Below are positions 2,453-39,829 of a DNA stretch of 40,964 bases, piece after piece (positions within the stretch are counted from its first letter, which is position 1; each line of letters starts with the position of its first letter). This DNA comes from a virus: the IMG/VR virus record IMGVR_UViG_3300009537_003934, positions 1 to 40,964 of that record; one strand, 5' to 3'. The notes beneath the pieces are model-generated. The model ran no database searches. It was not told the origin of the DNA and was given only the letters and a program-made list of their open reading frames with translations. The translations under genes and the position numbers were made by a program.

Positions 2453-2557
2453 AAAGGTATAAAAAAAGTAGTGAAAGGTATAAAAAAAGTAGTGAAAGGT
2501 ATAAAAAAAGTAGTGAAAAAGACGTAAATCTTCTGCAAAGGTATAAAAAAAGTAGTG
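2453..2557 (+). repeat. iterons of a theta-replication origin (4 x 21 bp)
   Basis: Four exact 21-bp copies (beginning AAAGGTATA, ending AGTAGTG, with a run of seven A in the middle) lie at 2453-2473, 2474-2494, 2495-2515 and 2537-2557. The first three abut. The fourth starts exactly 42 bp after the third, so all four are on the same helical face (21 bp is two turns). ATCTTCT precedes both copy 1 and copy 4. Such phased repeats upstream of a Rep_3 gene are the classic initiator-binding array of iteron plasmids, which controls both initiation and copy number. Confidence 0.85.
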
Positions 2558-2743
2558 AAAAAAGATGGTTGGTTTTATTTTTTATAATCCATTGAAACAA
2601 AACAAGTTAGATATGAAAACTGAATTTATAGATTTATATAAACTTCAAAAAAAAAATACTAAAATTTTAGCAATAATGTTCTTTTTTTCTATATATAACG
2701 ATATAATAATTCTTGGTCAAAATCTATATTTTTTCACAAAAAT

Positions 2744-2772
2744 TTGACATTACTTTACGATTTTGATAGAAT
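2744..2772 (+). promoter_or_regulatory. strong extended -10 promoter for ncRNA 1
   Basis: TTGACA (2744-2749), a 17-bp spacer and TAGAAT (2767-2772), with TGA just before the -10 making an extended -10 element. A start near 2779 is expected, four bases before the first arm of the structured RNA. Confidence 0.7.
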
Positions 2773-2778
2773 GTAAAT

Positions 2779-2896
2779 GCAATGACAATAGTATTGAAAA
2801 ATAATTTCACATTCTATAAGATTCTGTCGGGGTAAAATCGAAATGGCGAAACCTGTTTTCGTCTACTATTGTCAGCCTCGGCAGGATCTTTTTTTT
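2779..2896 (+). ncRNA. structured RNA 1, A-B-A'-B' pseudoknot ahead of rep
   Basis: Predicted transcript of about 118 nt from the promoter above. Arm A (2783-2793, TGACAATAGTA) pairs perfectly with A' (2864-2874). Arm B (2820-2832, GATTCTGTCGGGG) pairs with B' (2876-2888) over 13 bp with three G-U pairs. B' starts one base after A' ends, so the two stems interlock as an H-type pseudoknot and could stack. Between B and A' a hairpin (CGAAA, 2839-2843, with TTTCG, 2857-2861) is capped by a GG/CC pair. Eight T follow B'. It could be a free small RNA controlling copy number or a leader of rep. I do not recognise it as a known RNA family. Confidence 0.6.
2820..2896 (+). terminator. terminator-like stem with T8 at end of ncRNA 1
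   Basis: The B/B' stem (2820-2832 with 2876-2888) is followed directly by eight T (2889-2896), as in an intrinsic terminator. The long loop, which contains arm A', is unusual. If it terminates, rep must be read from its own promoter downstream or by readthrough. Confidence 0.5.
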
Positions 2897-2919
2897 AAAT
2901 GAAATATTTCACAAAATGT

Positions 2920-2946
2920 TTGACATGCAATTAGATTCTTTATCTT
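2920..2946 (+). promoter_or_regulatory. candidate rep promoter
   Basis: A perfect TTGACA (2920-2925) lies just after the T-run of ncRNA 1. The best -10 is TATCTT (2941-2946) at a short 15-bp spacing, 22 bp before the rep start. The -35 is convincing and the -10 is not. Confidence 0.35.
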
Positions 2947-2968
2947 CACTTTTGCAAAAAGATCTAAA

Positions 2969-3916
2969 ATGGGCGATTTGATAAGAAAGCATAATAAACT
3001 TATAGAAGCGAAAAATAATAATCTTACTATCTATCAACAGAGAATAATGTTAAAACTGCTCACTCTTATTAATAAGAATGATACTGAATTTAAAGAGCAT
3101 AAAATAAATATTTCAGAATTTAGTAAACAATTTGATTTTAATGTAAATTACGAAAGGCTTGAAATAGCTGTAGATAATTTAATGAGGAAAGTCTTTCATA
3201 TTGACTGTGAAGACGGAGGATGGAAGAAGTTTAATTATTTTGAAAAAGCAGAATGTTTAAGAAAAGATGGTATTCTTCTTTTAAAAATAAGCAATCACAT
3301 GAAACCGTATTTCTTGCAGTTGCAAAAAGAATATACCAATTATAGATTAGGGAAACTTGGCACATTAAAGAACAAATATTGTTTTGGAATTTATGAATTG
3401 GTAAAGCAATACCTGAAAACCAAGCATCGTAAAAGAAGTGTTAGTTTAAAATATTTATTAGAGTTTCTTGAGATTGACGATAAACCTGCATATAAGAATT
3501 TTAAATTATTAAATCAGAAGATACTTTCTCCTGTTAATAAAGAAATTAATGAAATGACAGATATAACTTATGAATATAGAGGGATTAGAAAATCAAAATT
3601 TATTACTGATATTGAATTTTATGATATAAAAGAAAAATCAAAAATAATAGAAAATATTGATAATGGAGATAATTGCAGTATTGAAAAAAAAGAAGTTTTT
3701 ATAAAAAATTTATTAAAAAAAATTGCAAGAGATGAAGAAAAGAATAATCGAAAAATAAATCATAATTATAAGCATAGAAAAAACATAATAAAGAAAGCTC
3801 TTAAAGATAATTATGAAGAAGTAATTAATAATTATTACGAAATGCAAGATGAAAAAGAAATTAATCATGTGGATTACTATTTTAAGAATATCATTCCTTT
3901 GTGCAAAGAAAAATGA
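2969..3916 (+). CDS. rep: Rep_3-family plasmid replication initiator
   Basis: A 315-residue protein with the layout of iteron-binding initiators (RepE, RepA, Pi; Rep_3 family): two winged-helix domains, about residues 1-120 and 125-225. Typical features are the opening (IRKHNKLIEAKNNNLTIYQQRIMLKLL), the ISEFSKQFDF turn, the YTNYRLGKLGTLKNKYCFGIYELVKQY junction and the second domain SLKYLLEFLEIDD with a helix that would read DNA (NKEINEMTDITYEYRG). The C-terminal third is basic and lower in complexity. Monomers are expected to bind the iterons at 2453-2557 and open the AT-rich flank, and dimers to repress. Its stop overlaps the next gene (ATGA). An initiator of this type beside phage replication genes is the main evidence for a plasmid-like lifestyle. 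Confidence 0.85.
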   Translation: MGDLIRKHNKLIEAKNNNLTIYQQRIMLKLLTLINKNDTEFKEHKINISEFSKQFDFNVNYERLEIAVDNLMRKVFHIDCEDGGWKKFNYFEKAECLRKDGILLLKISNHMKPYFLQLQKEYTNYRLGKLGTLKNKYCFGIYELVKQYLKTKHRKRSVSLKYLLEFLEIDDKPAYKNFKLLNQKILSPVNKEINEMTDITYEYRGIRKSKFITDIEFYDIKEKSKIIENIDNGDNCSIEKKEVFIKNLLKKIARDEEKNNRKINHNYKHRKNIIKKALKDNYEEVINNYYEMQDEKEINHVDYYFKNIIPLCKEK

Positions 3917-4383
3917 GATTATCAGAACTTGAAAAATTATCAGCTCAAAGACTTAAAGAAATAAAAACAAAAATTGATTTTCTTCTGCTATCGCAAAACA
4001 TAAGATATGCGGAAGATGATTCTGATTTATTAATATTTTATAATTCAATTACTACAGAAATTTATAAAAGAATAAAAAGGGTACAGTTAGATCTTCATGT
4101 AAAAAGAAAAAGACATAAACATTCTTATAAGAAAATTATTGAAGTAAAAGGATATCTTGAAGATTACTTAAAAGAGATAATAGATGAAGATGTGACTAAA
4201 ATTATGTTAAAGAAATGGTATATTATCTATTCAAAAATAGTTTGTGACTATATCTTCTTTATAGAAAAGAATAAACCTTTAACTGTGGACAATGTCTTAA
4301 GATATTATAATATCTTTCCAGAGCTTTTAGACAAAGAATATCCCGAATATATCAACAATGGTCTGGTAAAATTGATTTTGTAA
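3913..4383 (+). CDS. hypothetical protein co-transcribed with rep
   Basis: A mostly helical protein of about 156 residues with no recognised motif. It starts with a charged helix (RLSELEKLSAQRLKEIKTKI) and has a basic middle (HVKRKRHKHSYKKI). The ATG at 3913 overlaps the rep stop as ATGA and is preferred over a GTG at 3901; translational coupling is likely. A role in replication control or as an initiator accessory factor is only a guess from position. Confidence 0.6.
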   Translation: MRLSELEKLSAQRLKEIKTKIDFLLLSQNIRYAEDDSDLLIFYNSITTEIYKRIKRVQLDLHVKRKRHKHSYKKIIEVKGYLEDYLKEIIDEDVTKIMLKKWYIIYSKIVCDYIFFIEKNKPLTVDNVLRYYNIFPELLDKEYPEYINNGLVKLIL

Positions 4384-4385
4384 AT

Positions 4386-4520
4386 TAAATTTATGAGAAA
4401 GGATGTCAAATTTCCTATCGAATTTTTTAGAAATTAACGCAGGAAATTTTGCAAACAACCTGCTTGCAAAATAAATTTATGAGAAAGGGTGTCAAATTTC
4501 CTATCGATTTTTTTTAGAAA
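4386..4520. repeat. two 48-bp direct repeats with internal inverted repeats
   Basis: A 48-49-bp unit (beginning TAAATTTATGAGAAAGG, ending TTTTTTAGAAA) occurs at 4386-4433 and 4472-4520, spaced 86 bp, differing at about three positions. Each unit contains TGTCAAATTTCCTATCGA and is followed by AGGAAA, giving TTTCCT...AGGAAA inverted repeats. Between the units is a 9-bp inverted repeat (4446-4454 with 4464-4472, ATTTTGCAA/TTGCAAAAT). The array fills most of the gap before the helicase operon, so it is most likely an operator or a secondary replication site. No good rightward promoter was seen in it. Confidence 0.6.
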
Positions 4521-4573
4521 AGTTTAGGAAATTATTTCAAAATCCTGTTGAGAATCTATATTAAAAAACATGT

Positions 4574-6013
4574 ATGGAAAAAATTAGTCAATCTCTTCAA
4601 GAAAATCTATTAGTTCTTTTTTGTTATTCAAAAAAAGATATTCCAATCCTAATTAATTCATTTGACCCTAAATTATTTGAATCTTCTATATATAGAGAAA
4701 TTGCTGGTATAGCAATTACTTTTTTCCATCAATTTAATGAACCAATCGGCAGTCATCTTAAAGATGAACTGAAGCATAAAATAAATCCAAAGAAAAAAAC
4801 AATTAAAAATATAGAAATCGCCAAATTATATAAAATGGTATTATCAGAAATTAATGAATTAAAAGAAGGTGTGAATTCTGAATATATAATGAGTCAACTG
4901 ACAGAATATATAGAATTACAAGATATGAAAAATGATATTCTGAGAGTTCATAAGTATCTGTCAAAAGATGAAGTTAGTAAAGAAGATATAGAAAAATCAA
5001 AATTAATACTATATACTAATAAAAGCAAGCATCTTCAAAAATTTGATGAGGGTGTATCTTTTGGTGCGAATAGTGATATTATGAGTAGTTTAAATCTTGA
5101 AGAGGATTTATTATGTACAGGGATAAAAGAATTAGATAATGCTGGTGCTTGTCCGTCAAGAAAATCTCTTACTCTTTTTTCATCTTTGCCAGGTAAAGGC
5201 AAATCCTGGTTTATGATAATGGTCGGAAAGTATAATGCTTTTCATAGAAAAAAGGTTTTGCATATTTCGTTAGAAATGTATTGGAAAGAGGTTGTAAGGA
5301 GATATCTTCAATGTTATTTTGGAATTAGTGAATCTGATGAAATGCTTGAAATTCCAAGATTCAATTTGGATAATTTTGGTAAGTTCCATGACTTCAAAAT
5401 GGAAAAATTCAAGCCTAATTTATGGTTTGAACAAAAAGATATCGGCAAAACATTAAAAAGGAAATTGAATAAAATAAAAGGCGTACCCAAATTAATTATT
5501 AAGGATTTTCCAAGTGGATCTCTTACTGTTAAAATGTTGCAGGTCTATCTTGACAGCTTAATAAATTATTCAAATTTTCATCCTGATCTTTTGATAATAG
5601 ATTATGCAGATTTGATGAAAGTAGACGCAAAAAACAAAAGAATAGATTTAGGTAATCTTTTAATTGAATTAAGAGGGCTTGCGAGTACATATAATTGTGC
5701 CCTTCTTACAGGTGCACAATTTAACAGAGGTGCAAAACTTGAAAAAAGGCATTGGTATGACGAAAGATTTTTTCAAGAGGATTTTAGTAAAGCAAATACT
5801 GCTGACAAAATAATCAGTTTTAATCAAACGGATAGTGAGTTTGAAAAAAAACTTGCAAGATTGTTAGTAGTAAAAAATAGAGGAAGAAGAGGCGGACAGA
5901 AAGTCATAATCACACAGTCTTATGACACAGGACAATTTGCGGTAGAAACATTACGGCTTGCAAAATCAAAAATAATTGCAGGTAAGTATTGGAATGCCGT
6001 AGAATCAGAATGA
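4574..6013 (+). CDS. dnaB: DnaB-like replicative helicase
   Basis: A 479-residue RecA-fold hexameric helicase. The first about 170 residues form a helical N-terminal part less conserved than in DnaB. The ATPase core has Walker A SSLPGKGKSW (about residue 211), an H1a-like ISLEM (about 235), Walker B LLIIDYADLM (about 340), the H3 region GAQFNRGA (about 378) and an arginine-finger region KNRGRRGG (about 440). It unwinds the parental duplex at the fork 5' to 3' and should work with the primase at 7927. The ribosome site is weak, so the start is approximate. It heads a run of closely spaced replication genes. Sequence features are closer to phage than to chromosomal DnaB. Confidence 0.85.
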   Translation: MEKISQSLQENLLVLFCYSKKDIPILINSFDPKLFESSIYREIAGIAITFFHQFNEPIGSHLKDELKHKINPKKKTIKNIEIAKLYKMVLSEINELKEGVNSEYIMSQLTEYIELQDMKNDILRVHKYLSKDEVSKEDIEKSKLILYTNKSKHLQKFDEGVSFGANSDIMSSLNLEEDLLCTGIKELDNAGACPSRKSLTLFSSLPGKGKSWFMIMVGKYNAFHRKKVLHISLEMYWKEVVRRYLQCYFGISESDEMLEIPRFNLDNFGKFHDFKMEKFKPNLWFEQKDIGKTLKRKLNKIKGVPKLIIKDFPSGSLTVKMLQVYLDSLINYSNFHPDLLIIDYADLMKVDAKNKRIDLGNLLIELRGLASTYNCALLTGAQFNRGAKLEKRHWYDERFFQEDFSKANTADKIISFNQTDSEFEKKLARLLVVKNRGRRGGQKVIITQSYDTGQFAVETLRLAKSKIIAGKYWNAVESE

Positions 6014-6020
6014 GGTAAAA

Positions 6021-6221
6021 ATGGAATCAGATAAAAAAATTGAAGATTACAAACAGTTATTAGAAGATTGTTGTGAAGAAGACAGTGAAATTAGAAAAAT
6101 TGCAAGGGAAGTATTAACTGAAAAAGAAGTTTATGGGAATCATTTTGGCTTTCCGCCTTTAGCAGATGTTATAGAATTATTAGTGGGCAAAATAAAGAAA
6201 TTTGAGGATAAAAAAAATTGA
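6021..6221 (+). CDS. small acidic hypothetical protein
   Basis: 66 residues, mostly helical and acidic (KQLLEDCCEEDSEIRKIAREV), with a conserved-looking FGFPPLADVIELLVGKI segment. The AGGTAAAAATG start signal is reasonable. It lies 7 bp after the helicase stop and its stop overlaps the TTG of the next helicase (TTGA), so the three are likely co-translated. No family recognised. Confidence 0.6.
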   Translation: MESDKKIEDYKQLLEDCCEEDSEIRKIAREVLTEKEVYGNHFGFPPLADVIELLVGKIKKFEDKKN

Positions 6222-7735
6222 TTTCCAAAAATGCAATAATAGAATTTGAATCAAAAAAAATAAATAATTGGGATTATATCAAAACTATTGATAGAAATTT
6301 TCTTGAAGAAGAATTTAGTCATATTTCTAATGGTTTTAAATTTAAAATAGAACCATACGATCATCAACTCGCTTGTATTTTACTTGGATACTACAACCCA
6401 TCATTTTTATTTCTTCTTTCCATGGGCACAGGGAAATCAGCAATAATTATTCATCTTGCCAAATTAAGAAAGCAATTCGGTAAAGTTAAAAAGACTCTCG
6501 TGCTGATGCCTAATATTGCTGTAGTAGGGTCTTGGATAGATGAAATAAATAAACAAAGTGACCTTTCAAGTGTCGCTTTGATTGGCACAAAAGCTGAAAG
6601 AGAATTAGCTATTAAAAAAGAAGCTGATTTATATTTAATGAATTATGCAGGATTACAGGTAATGATGACAGATACTGTTAATAAGAAAAGAATACCTAAC
6701 CTAAAAAAGATGAAAGATTTTGCTGATATATTTGACGCTGTTGTTTTTGATGAAATTCATAATTGTTCTAATAAAAACAGTCTTGTATCAAAGCTAAGTT
6801 TAATCCTGTCTAAAAATTGCAAATATAGATATGGTTTGACAGGCACTCCATTTAATAGAGATTTAATGGGATTATGGAATATATTTAATGTTATAGATCA
6901 TGGTAAAACTCTTGGGCATAATATAACTCTATACAGGAGTATTTATTTTGATCAAAAAATTAATTATTGGGGTGGATACGAATACAACCTTAAAAAAAAT
7001 ATAGAGCATAAATTATATAAAAGAATAAAAAATATTTCTATAAGATACTCTGAAGATGAGTGTATGGATTTACCACCAATAATAAGAAAAAAAATATCAC
7101 TGTCATTTCCTAATGAAAATTATAAATACTATATAAAAGCTATTAAAGATGTTATTGAAGCTAAAGGAGACTTTAAAGCTTTAAAAAATGCTTTTGTTCA
7201 ATTACGACAGATCTCAAGCGGTTTTATCGGATTTAAAAATGAAGAAGAAGAAAAAATGCGGATAAGTTTTGACAGTAATCCTAAACTTGAAACACTTATT
7301 AGTTTGATAAATGAAATAAACGACAAAGTTATTGTGTTTAATGAGTTTATATATAGTGGCGATATTATCGCAGAACGTTTAAAAAAAGAAAAGATAAAAT
7401 TCGTAAGATTGTATGGAGGAACTAAGAAGAAAATAGATGTCATTAAAAAATTTCAGAATGATCCTAAAATAAAAGTATTTGTTATAAACTCAATTTCTGG
7501 CGGAACAGGCTTAAATCTTCAGTGCAGTAAATACGGTATATTTTACGAATCTAATCCTTCTGTTATTGTAAGAAGTCAAGCTGAAAAAAGATTTAGCGGG
7601 GCAAGACAAAAAAAACGATCATTTATTTTTGACTTAGTGATGAAAAAATCAGTAGAAGAAAAAATATTAAAATTTCATTCTGAAGGAAAAGATTTATTTC
7701 GTGCGATTGTCGAAGGCAAAGAAAAATTTGAATAG
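6218..7735 (+). CDS. SNF2-type superfamily 2 helicase/ATPase
   Basis: A 505-residue two-domain SF2 ATPase. Motif Q/I region: YDHQLACILLGYY then MGTGKSA (about residue 70). Motif Ia: TLVLMPNIAVVGSW. Motif II: VVFDEIHN (DEIH box, about 180). Motif III: YGLTGTPFNRD. Second RecA domain: KVIVFNEFIYSGDIIAERL, then INSISGGTGLNLQ (motif V) and SQAEKRFSGARQKK (motif VI, with Q-x3-R-xx-GxxQ character). It resembles the compact SNF2/UvsW-like helicases that many large phages carry for remodelling recombination or fork structures. TTG start overlaps the previous stop. It is followed by the ncRNA 2 promoter. Confidence 0.85.
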   Translation: MISKNAIIEFESKKINNWDYIKTIDRNFLEEEFSHISNGFKFKIEPYDHQLACILLGYYNPSFLFLLSMGTGKSAIIIHLAKLRKQFGKVKKTLVLMPNIAVVGSWIDEINKQSDLSSVALIGTKAERELAIKKEADLYLMNYAGLQVMMTDTVNKKRIPNLKKMKDFADIFDAVVFDEIHNCSNKNSLVSKLSLILSKNCKYRYGLTGTPFNRDLMGLWNIFNVIDHGKTLGHNITLYRSIYFDQKINYWGGYEYNLKKNIEHKLYKRIKNISIRYSEDECMDLPPIIRKKISLSFPNENYKYYIKAIKDVIEAKGDFKALKNAFVQLRQISSGFIGFKNEEEEKMRISFDSNPKLETLISLINEINDKVIVFNEFIYSGDIIAERLKKEKIKFVRLYGGTKKKIDVIKKFQNDPKIKVFVINSISGGTGLNLQCSKYGIFYESNPSVIVRSQAEKRFSGARQKKRSFIFDLVMKKSVEEKILKFHSEGKDLFRAIVEGKEKFE

Positions 7736-7755
7736 TCAAAATAATAATTTTTAGC

Positions 7756-7784
7756 TTGACGTTGATTAAAATTTGTGGTAATAT
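7756..7784 (+). promoter_or_regulatory. strong extended -10 promoter for ncRNA 2 / primase
   Basis: TTGACG (7756-7761), a 17-bp spacer and TAATAT (7779-7784), with TGG before the -10 (extended -10). The architecture equals that of the ncRNA 1 promoter. A start near 7791 is expected. Confidence 0.75.
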
Positions 7785-7790
7785 GCATTA

Positions 7791-7921
7791 AGTGAAATGG
7801 TCGAGACGTGAGAGATAAAACCAAAAAAAATCATAATAGCGACAGAAGGGATAGCCTACCGACATTTCTCTCAGGGAATAGTTGCAAGCCGTCTCGACCA
7901 CCTTCTGTCGCTTTAAATTTT
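7791..7921 (+). ncRNA. structured RNA 2, A-B-A'-B' pseudoknot ahead of primase
   Basis: Predicted RNA of about 130 nt. Arm A (7798-7808, TGGTCGAGACG) pairs perfectly over 11 bp with A' (7890-7900). Arm B (7838-7849, AGCGACAGAAGG) pairs perfectly over 12 bp with B' (7901-7912), which starts at the very next base after A'. A third stem C (7809-7815, TGAGAGA, with 7867-7873) lies inside A and encloses the 5' arm of B. TTTAAATTTTT follows B', a broken T-run. The primase ATG is at 7927 with no visible Shine-Dalgarno sequence, so this may be a cis-acting leader of primase, a free RNA, or both. G+C is clearly higher than in the flanks. Confidence 0.65.
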
Positions 7922-7926
7922 TGCCA

Positions 7927-8892
7927 ATGTCTTTAGATAAAATAAAAGATTTTCTTGATAATAACGGAATAGAATACATAGAAAAAGGCAAGAATGTAAT
8001 GGCTGGTAATATAGGGATAAATTGTCCATTTGAATGTGACGACCCAAGCCATCATTTAGGCATTAATAGTAAAGGATGGTATAGTTGCTGGAAAGATAGC
8101 TCTCATTCCGGTAAGCAATTTACTAACTTAATTGCAGCTTTATTGAATGTTAGTAAATATGAAGCGGAAAGTTTATGGGCAGAAAATGAATATATATCTA
8201 ATACTGAAGAATTTTATACTATTACTGATAAATCAGTATCTGAAAATATTTTAGATACTAAACCTATTGAGCTTCCTAAAGATTTTAGACTAATAAAAAA
8301 AGAAAATGGTATTACTCAAAGATTTATTTCTTATTTAAAAAGTAGAGATATTCCTGATTATCAAATTTATGACAAAGAGAATCCAATATTTTATAGCATT
8401 AAAGGGATTTGGATAAATAGATTTATTTTTCCAATATTATTTAACGGACTTATTTTTTCATGGACAAGCAGAAGTATTTATCCTGACTGTGAATTAAAAT
8501 ATTTAGATTTGTCTCCTGACGAATCTGCCAGACCTGTTAAGCATTGTATTTGGAAATATGATAATTTGAAAAAATATAACAATCAAAATATTCTATATAT
8601 AACAGAAGGTGTTTTTGACTGTTTAAAACTAAATAGTTATTTGCCTAAAGGCAATCAAGCAACGTGCATCTTTACAAAAACATTAAGAGATGAACAAAAA
8701 GGTTTGTTATTTGATATAGCTCATAATTTTAAAAAAATAAAAATAATGTTAGATGCTGACGCTATTATGGAAGCTGAAAGAATAAGGCGTGAGATAAGCT
8801 TCTTTAAGAATATCAGTATTGAGTATTTACCAGATGGCATAAAAGATCCTGCTGAATTACCAGCGGAATACATAAGAAATTTTTTACACTAA
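7927..8892 (+). CDS. dnaG: DnaG-like DNA primase
   Basis: A 321-residue protein from the ATG at 7927; an upstream in-frame codon at 7882 lies inside the structured RNA and is rejected. The N-terminus has a CHC2-type zinc-binding module: NCPFECDDPSHHLGI then WYSCWKDSSHSG. A Toprim domain follows at about residues 225-300: LYITEGVFDCLKL (the catalytic glutamate motif EG), then KIMLDADAIMEAE (DxD-like motif). It makes RNA primers for lagging-strand synthesis with the DnaB-like helicase. It is shorter than chromosomal DnaG and lacks the helicase-binding C-terminus. Absence of a ribosome site and the structured RNA directly upstream suggest translational or transcriptional control. Confidence 0.8.
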   Translation: MSLDKIKDFLDNNGIEYIEKGKNVMAGNIGINCPFECDDPSHHLGINSKGWYSCWKDSSHSGKQFTNLIAALLNVSKYEAESLWAENEYISNTEEFYTITDKSVSENILDTKPIELPKDFRLIKKENGITQRFISYLKSRDIPDYQIYDKENPIFYSIKGIWINRFIFPILFNGLIFSWTSRSIYPDCELKYLDLSPDESARPVKHCIWKYDNLKKYNNQNILYITEGVFDCLKLNSYLPKGNQATCIFTKTLRDEQKGLLFDIAHNFKKIKIMLDADAIMEAERIRREISFFKNISIEYLPDGIKDPAELPAEYIRNFLH

Positions 8893-9458: not shown

Positions 9459-10127
9459 ATGTCAAAAATAAGAGAAAATATAGAAGAAGTTGTTGGTGTG
9501 TCAATCGGAAATAAAGAAAGTGTTGAAGAATATATTAAAAGATTAGCTGTTTCTTGCAGTGCTTTAGAAGATAAAGATTATGATATGCTTGCAGAAGAAT
9601 CACAAATATACATAGAATCAGTTATAGATACTATAAATAAAAGCAATGGTGATATTAGTGGAGGAATACCGTTATTTCCTGATTCTGAAGATGAAGAAGT
9701 AGTTCCAAGACAAAAAGTAAAAACAAAATCAAAAGCAGTAAAGAAAGTAGCTTCAAAGAAGAAAAGAATCGCAAAACCAAAAGCAGAAGATAAAGAAATC
9801 GCAAAACCAAAAGCAGAAGATAAAGAAATCGCAAAACCAAAAGCAGAAGATAAAGAAATCGCAAAACCAAAAGCAGAAGATAAGATAGTTATAAAGCCAA
9901 AAGTAGAAAAGAAAACATTTACAAACACAAAACCAAAAGCAGAAAAAAAGACAGCCGTAGTAACAAAATGGAATCATGGATTGGCTTTTGATTCTGGCAA
10001 AATAGATGAAAAAATAATTGAAGGTATTACTAACCCTGTCAGGATAGCAAAAAGTTTAAAACTGACGCCAAGAAGAGTCAAAGAACATATCAGGCATCTT
10101 AGACAAAAACATTCCGCTAAATTTTAG
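9459..10127 (+). CDS. lysine-rich repeat protein with C-terminal HTH
   Basis: About 222 residues from the ATG at 9459 (TGGAGGA ribosome site); an earlier in-frame codon is inside the previous gene. Layout: an acidic helical head (residues 1-65), an acidic patch (PDSEDEEVV), then a very basic Lys/Ala/Pro linker including four IAKPKAED(K)-type decapeptides. A compact C-terminal domain (about 180-222; IDEKIIEGITNP, then IAKSLKLTPRRVKEHIRHLRQK) looks like a winged or simple helix-turn-helix that binds DNA. The linker recalls histone H1 tails or phage nucleoid proteins. A role in DNA compaction or regulation is inferred. Confidence 0.65.
   Translation: MSKIRENIEEVVGVSIGNKESVEEYIKRLAVSCSALEDKDYDMLAEESQIYIESVIDTINKSNGDISGGIPLFPDSEDEEVVPRQKVKTKSKAVKKVASKKKRIAKPKAEDKEIAKPKAEDKEIAKPKAEDKEIAKPKAEDKIVIKPKVEKKTFTNTKPKAEKKTAVVTKWNHGLAFDSGKIDEKIIEGITNPVRIAKSLKLTPRRVKEHIRHLRQKHSAKF
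9767..9884 (+). repeat. four 30-bp in-frame tandem repeats
   Basis: Units of 30 bp start at 9767, 9797, 9827 and 9857; the first three are identical and the fourth diverges at its last bases. Each encodes IAKPKAEDKE. The near-perfect DNA identity indicates recent slippage expansion, so copy number may vary between relatives. Confidence 0.9.
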
Positions 10128-25449: not shown

Positions 25450-26351
25450 AAAAAGTTATTCTTATTACCGGAAGCGAAGGTTTAATTGGAAAAGAATTAC
25501 AATTATTATTAGCTAAAAATAAGCGAGTAATAATTAAAAAAGCTGATTTAAAACTTGGTAATGACCTTAGATATTTTAAAGAATGTTTGAACTTATGCGA
25601 CGGAGTAAATGAAGTTTATAATTGTGTTGGAGTTAAAGGTTCTGCAAAAATGACAAAGGAAAGACCTGCTGATTTTCTTGTCCCAATGCTTCAATATAAT
25701 ACAAATATGATGGAAGCCGCAAGGCAATGTGGGGTAGATAAATTTTTATATGTGAGTTCTATTGCTGTTGAAAATTTAAAAACTGATTACTATCCAGCTA
25801 TGGCTAAATTAATGGGAGAAAAACAAATAGATGCTTATAGGGCGCAAAATTCTATAAAGACAAAATTCTGTATTGTCAGACCTGCTAATACTTATGGCAG
25901 ATTCGACCAATTTTATAATCCAAATGCTATGGTTATAACTTCTTTAATAAATAAAGCTGGTACAACAAATAATAATGAATTAAAAGTTTGGGGAGATGGT
26001 TCTCCTATAAGAGATTTTATCAACTCTATTGATGTAGCAAATGGTATGATAAAATGCATGAAGGTTATGCCAGAAGTACCGATAAATCTATGTAGCGGAA
26101 AAGGCGTTACTATAAAAAAAGCTGCGAATATTATTGGTAAAATATCAAACAAAAAAGTAATATTTGAGAAGAAAAGTAATGTCGGGGCTAAATCAAGAGT
26201 AATGAAAATCAATGGAGACATTATCGATTGGAAACCGAATATTTCATTAAAAGATGGATTAGTTAAAGTTTGGGATTGGTATCAAATTATAACCAAAATA
26301 GATCAATCATCCCTCCCTAAAGGAAGGGGTTTCTTGGATAAAACTGGATGA
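25446..26351 (+). CDS. NAD-dependent epimerase/dehydratase
   Basis: A 301-residue extended SDR from a TTG at 25446 (GGAGAA site) that overlaps the preceding stop. Motifs: KVILITGSEGLIGKELQLLL; EVYNCVGVKGS; FLYVSSIAVEN; DYYPAMAKLMGEKQ; CIVRPANTYGRFD; DFINSIDVANGMI. The Tyr-Lys spacing is one longer than the usual YxxxK. Substrate specificity cannot be read, but GDP- or dTDP-sugar is likely. The C-terminal residues (SLPKGRGFLDKTG) are encoded by a hairpin repeat, so the original end was probably lost or extended. Confidence 0.75.
   Translation: MKKVILITGSEGLIGKELQLLLAKNKRVIIKKADLKLGNDLRYFKECLNLCDGVNEVYNCVGVKGSAKMTKERPADFLVPMLQYNTNMMEAARQCGVDKFLYVSSIAVENLKTDYYPAMAKLMGEKQIDAYRAQNSIKTKFCIVRPANTYGRFDQFYNPNAMVITSLINKAGTTNNNELKVWGDGSPIRDFINSIDVANGMIKCMKVMPEVPINLCSGKGVTIKKAANIIGKISNKKVIFEKKSNVGAKSRVMKINGDIIDWKPNISLKDGLVKVWDWYQIITKIDQSSLPKGRGFLDKTG
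26302..26337. repeat. hairpin repeat copy 1 (matches 40731-40767)
   Basis: A 36-bp segment with core CCCTCCCTAAAGGAAGGGG forming an imperfect hairpin. It matches the opposite strand of 40731-40767 with about five mismatches and one gap. It encodes the C-terminal SSLPKGRGFL of the epimerase. The form resembles the hairpin ends of IS200/IS605-type elements or REP-like repeats, though no transposase or TnpB is present. Confidence 0.65.
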
Positions 26352-27081
26352 ATAATTTCACTAATATAAAAACTATATCATGGTTTAGTAGTGGAGTGTC
26401 AAGTGCCGTAGCTACCAAACTTATGATTGATGAAATAGATCAAATAATTTACACTCATATTGACGATCAACACTCAGATACTTTGCGTTTTGTTTCTGAT
26501 TGTGAAAAGTGGTTTGGAAAGCCAATTAAAATACTTCAAAGTCATTATAAAAATGTTGAAAATGCTTGCAGGGCAGCAGGAGGACGAGGTTACGTGAATG
26601 GGATTGGTGGAGCCCCCTGTACGAGATTTCTAAAAAGACGTGTAAGAGCCGAATGGGAACTCAATAAAAAAGAGGCTTTACGCTATGTTTGGGGTATAGA
26701 TATAAATGAACAGAATAGATGTAAAAAATTAATATTAAATATACCAAATCAGGAACATGTTTTCCGCTTGTTGATAAAAAAATAAATAAAGCAGAAGCAC
26801 ATAGAATTTTAAAAGCCAGCGGAATAAAGCGTCCAGCAATGTACGATTTAGGATATAACAATAATAATTGTATTGGATGTGTTAAAGGCGGTATGGGGTA
26901 TTGGAATCATATTCGAGTAGATTTTCCGGAAATTTTCGCTCAAAGGGCTAAAATGGAAAGATTAATTGGTGGGACTTGCATAAAGGGCGTATATTTAGAT
27001 GAATTAGCTCCAGAAAAAGGCAGGCACACACCACCAATCGTTGATGATTGTGGTATCTTATGCGAAAGCATAGGATTATGA
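26348..27081 (+). pseudogene. PAPS-reductase-like ATP pyrophosphatase, frameshifted
   Basis: Two open frames form one protein. The N-terminal part (26348-26785) has the PP-loop SSGVSSAVATKL, then HIDDQHSDTLRFVSD and GGAPCTRFLKRRVRAEW, ending at EHVF followed by a wrong-frame RLLIKK stop. The C-terminal part continues in another frame from about 26766 (LVDKKINKAEAHRIL, KASGIKRPAMYDLGYNNNNCIGCVKGGMGYW) to 27081. One missing base in TTTTCCGC at about 26760-26766 (a C would restore EHVFPLVDKK) explains it. Intact relatives are common in phages and resemble DndC/CysH adenine-nucleotide alpha hydrolases. Either a real inactivation or a sequencing error. Its start overlaps the previous stop (ATGA). 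Confidence 0.75.
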
Positions 27082-38811: not shown

Positions 38812-38991
38812 ATGGCTTATTATACTATTACACAGTTAAAAAGAAACCTTAAAGATGTAAATAAATTAAGAAAACATCTTAAATTAAAAAAAGTAGTTCA
38901 TAAAAAAAGAGAGTGTTTGAGATGTGGTGATAAATTTACTTCTTCTGGTATCAATAATAGATTATGTGATCTCTGTAGGCATCTTATATGA
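38812..38991 (+). CDS. 59-residue zinc-ribbon protein
   Basis: A short gene with an ATAGGAGA site 4-10 bases before its ATG. A basic helical start (QLKRNLKDVNKLRKHLKLKKVV) precedes CLRCGDKF ... LCDLCRHL, a clean four-Cys zinc ribbon. The stop overlaps the left arm of the palindromic hairpin at 38988. Part of a run of small Cys-rich genes. Confidence 0.6.
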   Translation: MAYYTITQLKRNLKDVNKLRKHLKLKKVVHKKRECLRCGDKFTSSGINNRLCDLCRHLI

Positions 38992-39023
38992 CGCTCTTCG
39001 TGGCTTGCCTCGTGGAGCGTCAT
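38988..39023. repeat. 9-bp perfect inverted repeat at methyltransferase boundary
   Basis: ATGACGCTC (38988-38996) pairs with GAGCGTCAT (39015-39023) around an 18-nt GC-rich loop containing two CGTGG motifs. It marks where base composition starts to rise before the methyltransferase. No T-run follows, so not an obvious terminator; it may be a mobile-element or insertion scar. Confidence 0.5.
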
Positions 39024-39094
39024 GTGAGGAGATTATATGGAAAAAGATTGGGCAAAATATATTTCTAAAAAAGATAAAAGTGAGTGACAAGTAC

Positions 39095-39829
39095 ATGGGT
39101 TTGCGAGAATTTGAGTTACATTGTGGTGACTGCCTTAATGTGATGAAAATTATTCCTGATTCGTCAGTGGATATGATTCTCGCAGACCCTCTATAACTTT
39201 ACGGCACAACAGCCTGCGAATGGGATAGTGTGATACCGCTAGAACCGATGTGGAAACAGTTGAAACGGGTGATTAAGCCTAATGGGGCTATTGTGATGAC
39301 AGCCTCACAGCCGTTTACTACTACATTGATAGTCTCAAATATGAAGATGTTTAAGTATTGTTGGGTGTGGGATAAGAAAAAAGGGGGCAGCCCGTTGTTA
39401 TCTAAAATACAACCATTGCGTGTTACTGAAGATGTTGTTGTATTTGGATGTGGGAAGGTGACGTATAACCCCATCATGACCTTGAGGGATAAAACCAAAA
39501 GTCGCGGAAGCAATACCGGGAAAGTTTCCGAAACAACAGGGAATGCTTTTACAGAAGATAAGGTTTATACGCACAAATACCCAAAGAATATCATTGAGGT
39601 TAGCAACGCCTCACAAAAGGGAAAGCTACACCCAACCCAGAAGCCCGTGGAACTCATGGAATATTTAATCAAAACATACACCGAAGAGAAAGAACTTGTT
39701 CTGGATTTCACAATGGGAAGTGGGACAACAGGCATAGCCTGTGTGAACCTCAACAGAGATTTCATCGGCATAGAAAAAGATGCCGGATATTATGACATTG
39801 CCTGCAAAAGAATAAACAATGCAAGGTGA
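39095..39829 (+). pseudogene. DNA adenine methyltransferase, interrupted by in-frame TAA
   Basis: A beta-class-like site-specific DNA methyltransferase: FELHCGDCLNVMKIIPDSSVDMILADP, then the DPPY position, then YGTTACEWD, target-recognition region, and a C-terminal SAM-binding motif LVLDFTMGSGTTGIACV. The catalytic DPPY reads D-P-L-stop-L-Y: six extra bases around 39190-39199 include a TAA at 39194-39196 in the same frame. The remainder is intact and well conserved. G+C is near 45-48%, far above neighbours, and codon use differs, indicating recent transfer. Start taken at ATG 39095; a GTG at 39080 is possible. Unless the stop is read through, the enzyme is inactive. Confidence 0.8.

Follow-up and report, generated by a model that had tools for sequence, protein, structure and literature searches.

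The closest described counterpart of the two RNAs reported here appears to be the control of plasmid replication initiators by a pseudoknot together with a leader peptide. The RNAs are predicted in the viral contig IMGVR_UViG_3300009537_003934, all 40,964 bases of which (28% G+C) were analysed and are called the window below; RNA 1 precedes rep, the gene of a Rep_3 initiator, RNA 2 precedes a DNA primase gene, and we tentatively read both as cis-acting leaders of these genes. In the leaders of IncI-alpha repYZ (plasmid ColIb-P9) and IncL/M repA, a pseudoknot and a leader peptide reportedly control the initiator; translation is switched on by the pseudoknot and counteracted by an antisense RNA. 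Such leaders are the subject of papers by Asano and Mizobuchi (1998) and Athanasopoulos (1999), both cited in PMC10724649. RNA 1 resembles these leaders in that its pseudoknot (2783-2890) lies upstream of an initiator gene, which begins at 2969, and in that a short predicted open reading frame (ORF), of 19 codons with a Shine-Dalgarno (SD)-like site, overlaps the structure. It differs in that one stem of the pseudoknot would double as a terminator and in that the layout recurs ahead of the primase gene. The likeness would be one of working principle and not of membership, because the initiator is not a homologue of RepZ or RepA but a Rep_3 protein (PF01051/PF21205) accompanied by iterons, and because no antisense RNA was identified, the one candidate promoter for such an RNA being a weak 9/12 promoter-like site on the minus strand (3053-3026).

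Other systems share single elements of this arrangement. The mRNA of phage T4 gene 32 carries a small classical H-type pseudoknot that serves as the translational operator for gp32; it heads the mRNA of a phage replication gene, as RNA 1 and RNA 2 would, but it has no terminator and far shorter stems and loops. Attenuation of rep in plasmids of the pT181/pIP501 type likewise places a terminator in the leader upstream of the initiator; in contrast to the RNAs described here, it is driven by an antisense RNA and lacks such a pseudoknot. Finally, extrachromosomal prophages of mycobacteriophages without RepA use RNA-based origins, in which a noncoding RNA lies beside the replication and partition region (PMC7157519); those phages differ from the window phage in lacking a Rep protein, and the passages of that source on which we draw do not describe the RNA as a pseudoknot.

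Two predicted pseudoknot RNAs with start codons in their loops

Both RNAs are predicted to start from strong promoters of the extended -10 type and to fold into two crossing stems, A and B, whose arms follow one another in the order A-B-A'-B':

2744-2772, plus strand: RNA 1 promoter, extended -10, TTGACA-17-TAGAAT, with the TGn extension
2779-2897, plus strand: RNA 1, predicted leader or small RNA of about 119 nucleotides (nt), A-B-A'-B' pseudoknot with a U8 tail
2783-2793, plus strand: RNA 1 stem A, 5' arm (TGACAATAGTA)
2818-2833, plus strand: RNA 1 stem B, 5' arm, with three internal G.U pairs to B' and zero mismatches
2843-2902, plus strand: 19-codon ORF (MAKPVFVYYCQPRQDLFFK), candidate leader peptide; its SD-like site, GGGGT, lies within arm B and its frame crosses A', B' and the U-tract
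2864-2874, plus strand: RNA 1 stem A, 3' arm
2875-2890, plus strand: RNA 1 stem B, 3' arm, then the U-tract to 2897
7756-7784, plus strand: RNA 2 promoter, extended -10, TTGACG-17-TAATAT, with the TGn extension
7791-7924, plus strand: RNA 2, predicted leader or small RNA of about 134 nt, A-B-A'-B' pseudoknot with a U-rich end
7798-7808, plus strand: RNA 2 stem A, 5' arm (TGGTCGAGACG)
7838-7849, plus strand: RNA 2 stem B, 5' arm (AGCGACAGAAGG)
7873-7884, plus strand: AGGGA ... TTG, an SD-like sequence and a start codon, both within the B-A' loop; the frame crosses A', B' and the U-tract into the primase
7890-7900, plus strand: RNA 2 stem A, 3' arm
7901-7912, plus strand: RNA 2 stem B, 3' arm, then TTTAAATTTTT

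An earlier note on this DNA had described two RNAs with extended -10 promoters, similar stems and loops and touching A' and B' arms, and all of these are recovered, with an A'-B' gap of 0 in both. Stem A has 11 base pairs (bp) in each RNA, extended in RNA 2 (crossing stems 7798-7912) by the pairing of TGAGAGA (7809-7815) with TCTCTCA, and stem B has 12 bp in RNA 2 and a 13-bp core in RNA 1, or 16 bp counting the ends. The A-B loops measure 24 nt (RNA 1) and 29 nt (RNA 2) and the B-A' loops 30 and 40 nt, lengths that on geometric grounds should suffice to span the stems, so that A and B would be compatible. Transcription is predicted from the promoters to start 4-7 nt 5' of stem A in both cases, and the pattern TTGAC-N14-16-TGnTAnnnT has exactly two matches in the 41-kb window, one 5' of each RNA, where 0.32 would be expected by chance. 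The U-rich ends also claimed in the note hold for RNA 1, which has a strong run (TTTTTTTT), and hold in part for RNA 2, whose run is interrupted. In both, a G+C-rich stem B leads directly into this tract (T8 in RNA 1, the weaker TTTAAATTTTT in RNA 2), as in an intrinsic terminator; the loops exceed the length range of a standard terminator scan. When the nascent RNA is folded to the end of A', stem A is the minimum-energy form in both RNAs, and after synthesis of B' the best nested fold is stem B.

The two pseudoknots are far above chance. Crossing stems were sought over the whole window on both strands, with G.U pairs allowed, and the two top sites, at 7798 and 2783, both score 60 and have A' touching B'. 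Dinucleotide shuffling, repeated 120 times in 1-kb blocks, gave 55 as the top score of a crossing pair whose 3' arms adjoin, and pairs scoring at least 55 occurred at 0.008 per shuffle. Adjusted for composition, the scores are 51.3 and 44.7, against a best value of about 36 in control phage DNA, AT-rich and some 0.6 Mb in total, two sites in one Rep_3 virus (G001, discussed below) excepted.

A further common feature, missed by the earlier note, is a start codon with a ribosome-binding site inside the structure: in both RNAs one start codon of the B-A' loop, and no other, opens a frame that crosses A', B' and the U-tract without a stop. The calculated SD energies are -6.3 kcal/mol for ATG 2843 and -5.1 kcal/mol for TTG 7882; of random starts in the window, about 10% reach -5. 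The frame opened in RNA 1 ends at 2902, upstream of rep, and that of RNA 2 continues into the primase. The conserved starts of the two genes themselves lack an SD (-0.9 for rep and +1.7 for the primase ATG at 7927), whereas most genes of the phage have one.

It is because of these loop start codons and ribosome sites, together with the SD-less conserved starts of rep and the primase gene, that a reading of RNA 1 and RNA 2 as cis-acting 5' leaders, or attenuators, of the two genes is the one we favour, if tentatively. From the anatomy of the locus (predicted structures, promoters and ORFs, ribosome-site calculations and gene neighbourhood) we infer how both leaders might be transcribed, terminated and switched. 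Each would be transcribed from its own strong promoter, and stem A would fold once A' is made; stem B would close next, before the U-tract, as an intrinsic terminator pseudoknotted with stem A. A ribosome starting in the loop, at the single usable binding site of each leader, would unwind A' and B', so that no terminator forms and the replication gene is transcribed; the primase product might then carry 15 additional N-terminal residues, and rep would be made after the 19-codon leader peptide. If B instead paired with B', transcription would stop, leaving an RNA of about 120 nt, and the ribosome-binding site of RNA 1, whose GGGG sits within arm B, would therefore be hidden. RNA 2 ends 2 nt upstream of the primase ATG, and in relatives (L115, L117, L118, L121, L125 and L126) helicase and primase genes are spaced by 12-85 nt; a terminator at RNA 2 must therefore affect the primase in cis.

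Genomic setting of the two RNAs

No near DNA relatives of the window were found among phage and plasmid collections. Its genes include those for a Rep_3 protein, ParB, a DnaB-type helicase, an SF2 helicase, a primase, ThyX and a DnaE-type polymerase. Profile matches bear out the note's placement of one RNA before an initiator and the other before a primase: the rep product is a Rep_3 initiator (PF01051, E 7e-26), and the gene 3' of RNA 2 is a primase (phrog_47, E 1e-30).

2453-2562, plus strand: four iterons (TATAAAAAAAGTAGTGAAA) spaced 21, 21 and 42, a plasmid-type Rep_3 origin
2731-2749, plus strand: first copy of a repeat (TTTCACAAAAATTTGACAT), covering the -35 of the RNA 1 promoter
2907-2926, plus strand: second copy (TTTCACAAAANNTTTGACAT), in the interval between RNA 1 and rep, with one extra base relative to the first
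2969-3916, plus strand: rep, Rep_3 initiator, start codon without an SD
7927-8892, plus strand: DNA primase, ATG 7927 at a start position conserved across relatives, without an SD

Among annotated relatives, Edwardsiella phage ZHS and the Mardecavirus phages SSP002 and MAR10 of Vibrio come closest. They share the order DnaB - SF2 helicase - primase, at 28-35% protein identity, and differ from the window phage in having no Rep_3 initiator match and no RNA in the helicase-primase gap. Gene content, these relatives and the iterons mark the window as a Mardecavirus-like phage, though a distant one, whose initiator module is of plasmid type. The repeat that flanks RNA 1 on both sides, TTTCACAAAA(TG/A)TTTGACAT, may possibly be an autoregulatory operator of Rep.

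Several other observations were made in the window. The leader of the DnaB gene (4378-4514) is filled by two 51-nt direct repeats, 92% identical and 86 nt apart, with AAATTTCC/GGAAATTT arms; the fold is no better than that of shuffles (z -1.1), and the DnaB ATG is also without an SD. A PAPS-reductase-like gene (26348-27081) and a DNA methyltransferase gene (38924-39829) are each broken into two ORFs, for which a frameshift, sequencing error or decay are options. At the contig start, a 15-nt repeat array (54-499) codes for a pentapeptide-repeat-like protein.

Search for related RNAs in other genomes

The earlier note took the shared architecture as the mark of a structurally conserved RNA class and proposed a covariance model. 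The stems of RNA 1 and RNA 2 cannot be aligned by MAFFT, and because two unalignable sequences carry no covariation, a composition-adjusted pseudoknot descriptor was used for the scans, which covered nearly 3 Mb in total. Alignments of DnaB and the helicase gathered more than 150 viral-contig loci, about 30 of which carry the DnaB-SF2 helicase-primase module. None of these roughly 30 loci has a comparable RNA in the helicase-primase gap; helicase and primase genes nearly abut, or a longer, mostly open stretch lies between them, and RNA 2 thus occupies a site at which relatives have nothing comparable. None of the other high-scoring sites in the nearly 3 Mb scanned combines the loop sizes, the promoter and the U-tail, neither RNA matches Rfam 15 even at permissive thresholds, and the Rep_3 plasmids and viruses compared have iterons but no such pseudoknot upstream of rep. 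The architecture shared within this genome is therefore above chance, at 60 for both sites against a shuffle maximum of 55, but with no clear member in an independent genome, no Rfam match and no alignment between the two RNAs, the claim of a class is unproven.

The candidates that these searches returned were set aside or retained as leads. A match in a helicase-primase gap (locus L034) lies inside a methyltransferase-like gene and one in L126 within the start of the helicase gene, and both were rejected. A viral-contig search for copies of the RNA 2 arms gave two chance matches in GC-rich contigs, and a genome-contig scan for DnaB relatives gave one irrelevant locus. High-scoring crossing-stem sites other than those of the window are found in L134, in G001 near 9987, and, as a family of sites, in unrelated phages. 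The first, at 1043-966 on the minus strand of an only distantly related locus, is a compact A-B-A'-B' arrangement with a U-tail, in which the inverted repeats AGGTCGCCGCCTA / AGAACCCTCTTGGA interleave and their 3' arms adjoin, and all its pairing deviations are G.U; it is a lead and not a member, because loops of 11 and 5 nt probably leave too little room for the two stems to coexist. The second (G001, L178/L179, 9987-10170) has stems A of 14 bp and B of 12 bp with an A'-B' gap of 1 nt, in an intergenic region of a Rep_3 virus of 25% GC, and two of its arms lead into U-runs when read on the minus strand; with an 85-nt loop and no U-tail it too is only a lead.

The family in unrelated phages is a recurrent element just upstream of a VRR-NUC-type gene in L078/L050/L046 and L095/L093/L088 (for example L050 9538-9798), with a similar site in L045/L087. 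Its stem of 18-19 bp is near-perfect and wholly different in sequence between the groups, while the spacing and a CGTAAAATC/GA(C/T)TTACG stem are constant, and the stem is similar in sequence to the last part of the gene before it. It has no Rfam match in L078, L050 or L095, and looks like either an undescribed covarying RNA or a target-derived element. The phage contig L050 also carries a DUF2800 RNA motif at 1424-1581 (Rfam RF02960, 113.9 bits).

Weighing the explanations

Several findings weigh against the interpretation of the two RNAs as cis-acting leaders. Neither leader shows covariation or conservation in any homologue; the U-run of RNA 2 is interrupted; a further TTGACA at 2920, between RNA 1 and rep, may give rep a promoter of its own; and the relatives compared have no conserved 15-residue N-terminal extension of the primase, nearly all of them having a start codon at the position that matches ATG 7927. 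Location upstream of a gene is itself weak evidence, because in a compact genome read from one strand any intergenic RNA precedes some gene. The main rival, unlikely but to be taken seriously, is that RNA 1 and RNA 2 are stand-alone small RNAs that share a structural type and function in trans, for instance by binding a protein, RNA 2 being an RNA "moron" inserted between helicase and primase. Both have the make-up of complete transcription units, with a strong promoter and a U-tract of their own, the site of RNA 2 has no counterpart in relatives, and a common geometry in unrelated sequence would fit recognition by shape. However, a strong terminator at RNA 2 would separate the primase from its operon unless read-through were regulated, the two RNAs have no common sequence motif besides a chance 8-mer, and neither the scans of about 3 Mb of phage DNA nor Rfam yielded additional members. 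That 8-mer was the basis on which the earlier note suggested pairing in trans; a possible coordination of replication it derived from the position of the RNAs before the initiator and the primase. The complementarity between 2822-2829 and 7840-7847 is present, but 28% of shuffled RNA pairs contain a complement of at least 8 nt, the predicted duplex is of average energy, matched by 72 of 200 shuffles, and both sites would be buried in stable stems of 12-16 bp. Mutual regulation by direct pairing via TTCTGTCG is accordingly highly improbable and is rejected as a means of coordination; coordination as such is weakly possible, each RNA leading a replication gene.

Two further explanations turn on what kind of element the structures are. 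If they were DNA-level elements, with interleaved inverted repeats serving as binding sites for Rep or some other protein, any RNA pairing would be incidental; RNA 1 does lie between the iterons and rep, flanked by repeated TTTCAC(A) motifs, and an iteron-like inverted repeat in G001 looks similar. The arms, however, have no sequence in common with the iterons, nor do those of one locus share any with those of the other, and the three internal positions at which stem B of RNA 1 departs from a perfect inverted repeat are all G.U, which favours selection on RNA. The promoter 5' and the U-tract 3' of the structure, on the same strand, are also positioned as for a transcript. Together these points favour a transcript modestly, since the crossing-stem scan itself permits G.U pairs, and we consider a DNA-level role improbable. 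Slightly more improbable still is that the transcripts are origin RNAs, RNA 1 priming or activating replication beside the iterons and RNA 2 marking a second origin. RNA 1 would be transcribed out of the AT-rich region adjoining the iterons, and mycobacteriophages without RepA are described as requiring a noncoding RNA for replication (PMC7157519); those phages, however, have no Rep protein, whereas the window phage has Rep_3 and iterons, and no second origin feature was seen near RNA 2.

A structured leader of replication genes, present twice in one phage, is thus the likely reading of RNA 1 and RNA 2. That they constitute a new kind of regulatory RNA is doubtful, if conceivable: in such an RNA one stem of a long pseudoknot would be the terminator, the frame of the downstream gene or of a leader ORF would run through both 3' arms, and its occurrence twice in one phage would place synthesis of the plasmid-type initiator and of the primase under a common signal. 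Should the two RNAs indeed be leaders, a phage with a plasmid-type origin would control its initiator and its primase by one RNA layout in differing sequences; this would be a phage counterpart to the pseudoknot control of plasmid initiators, with an unusual terminator stem that doubles as half of the pseudoknot.

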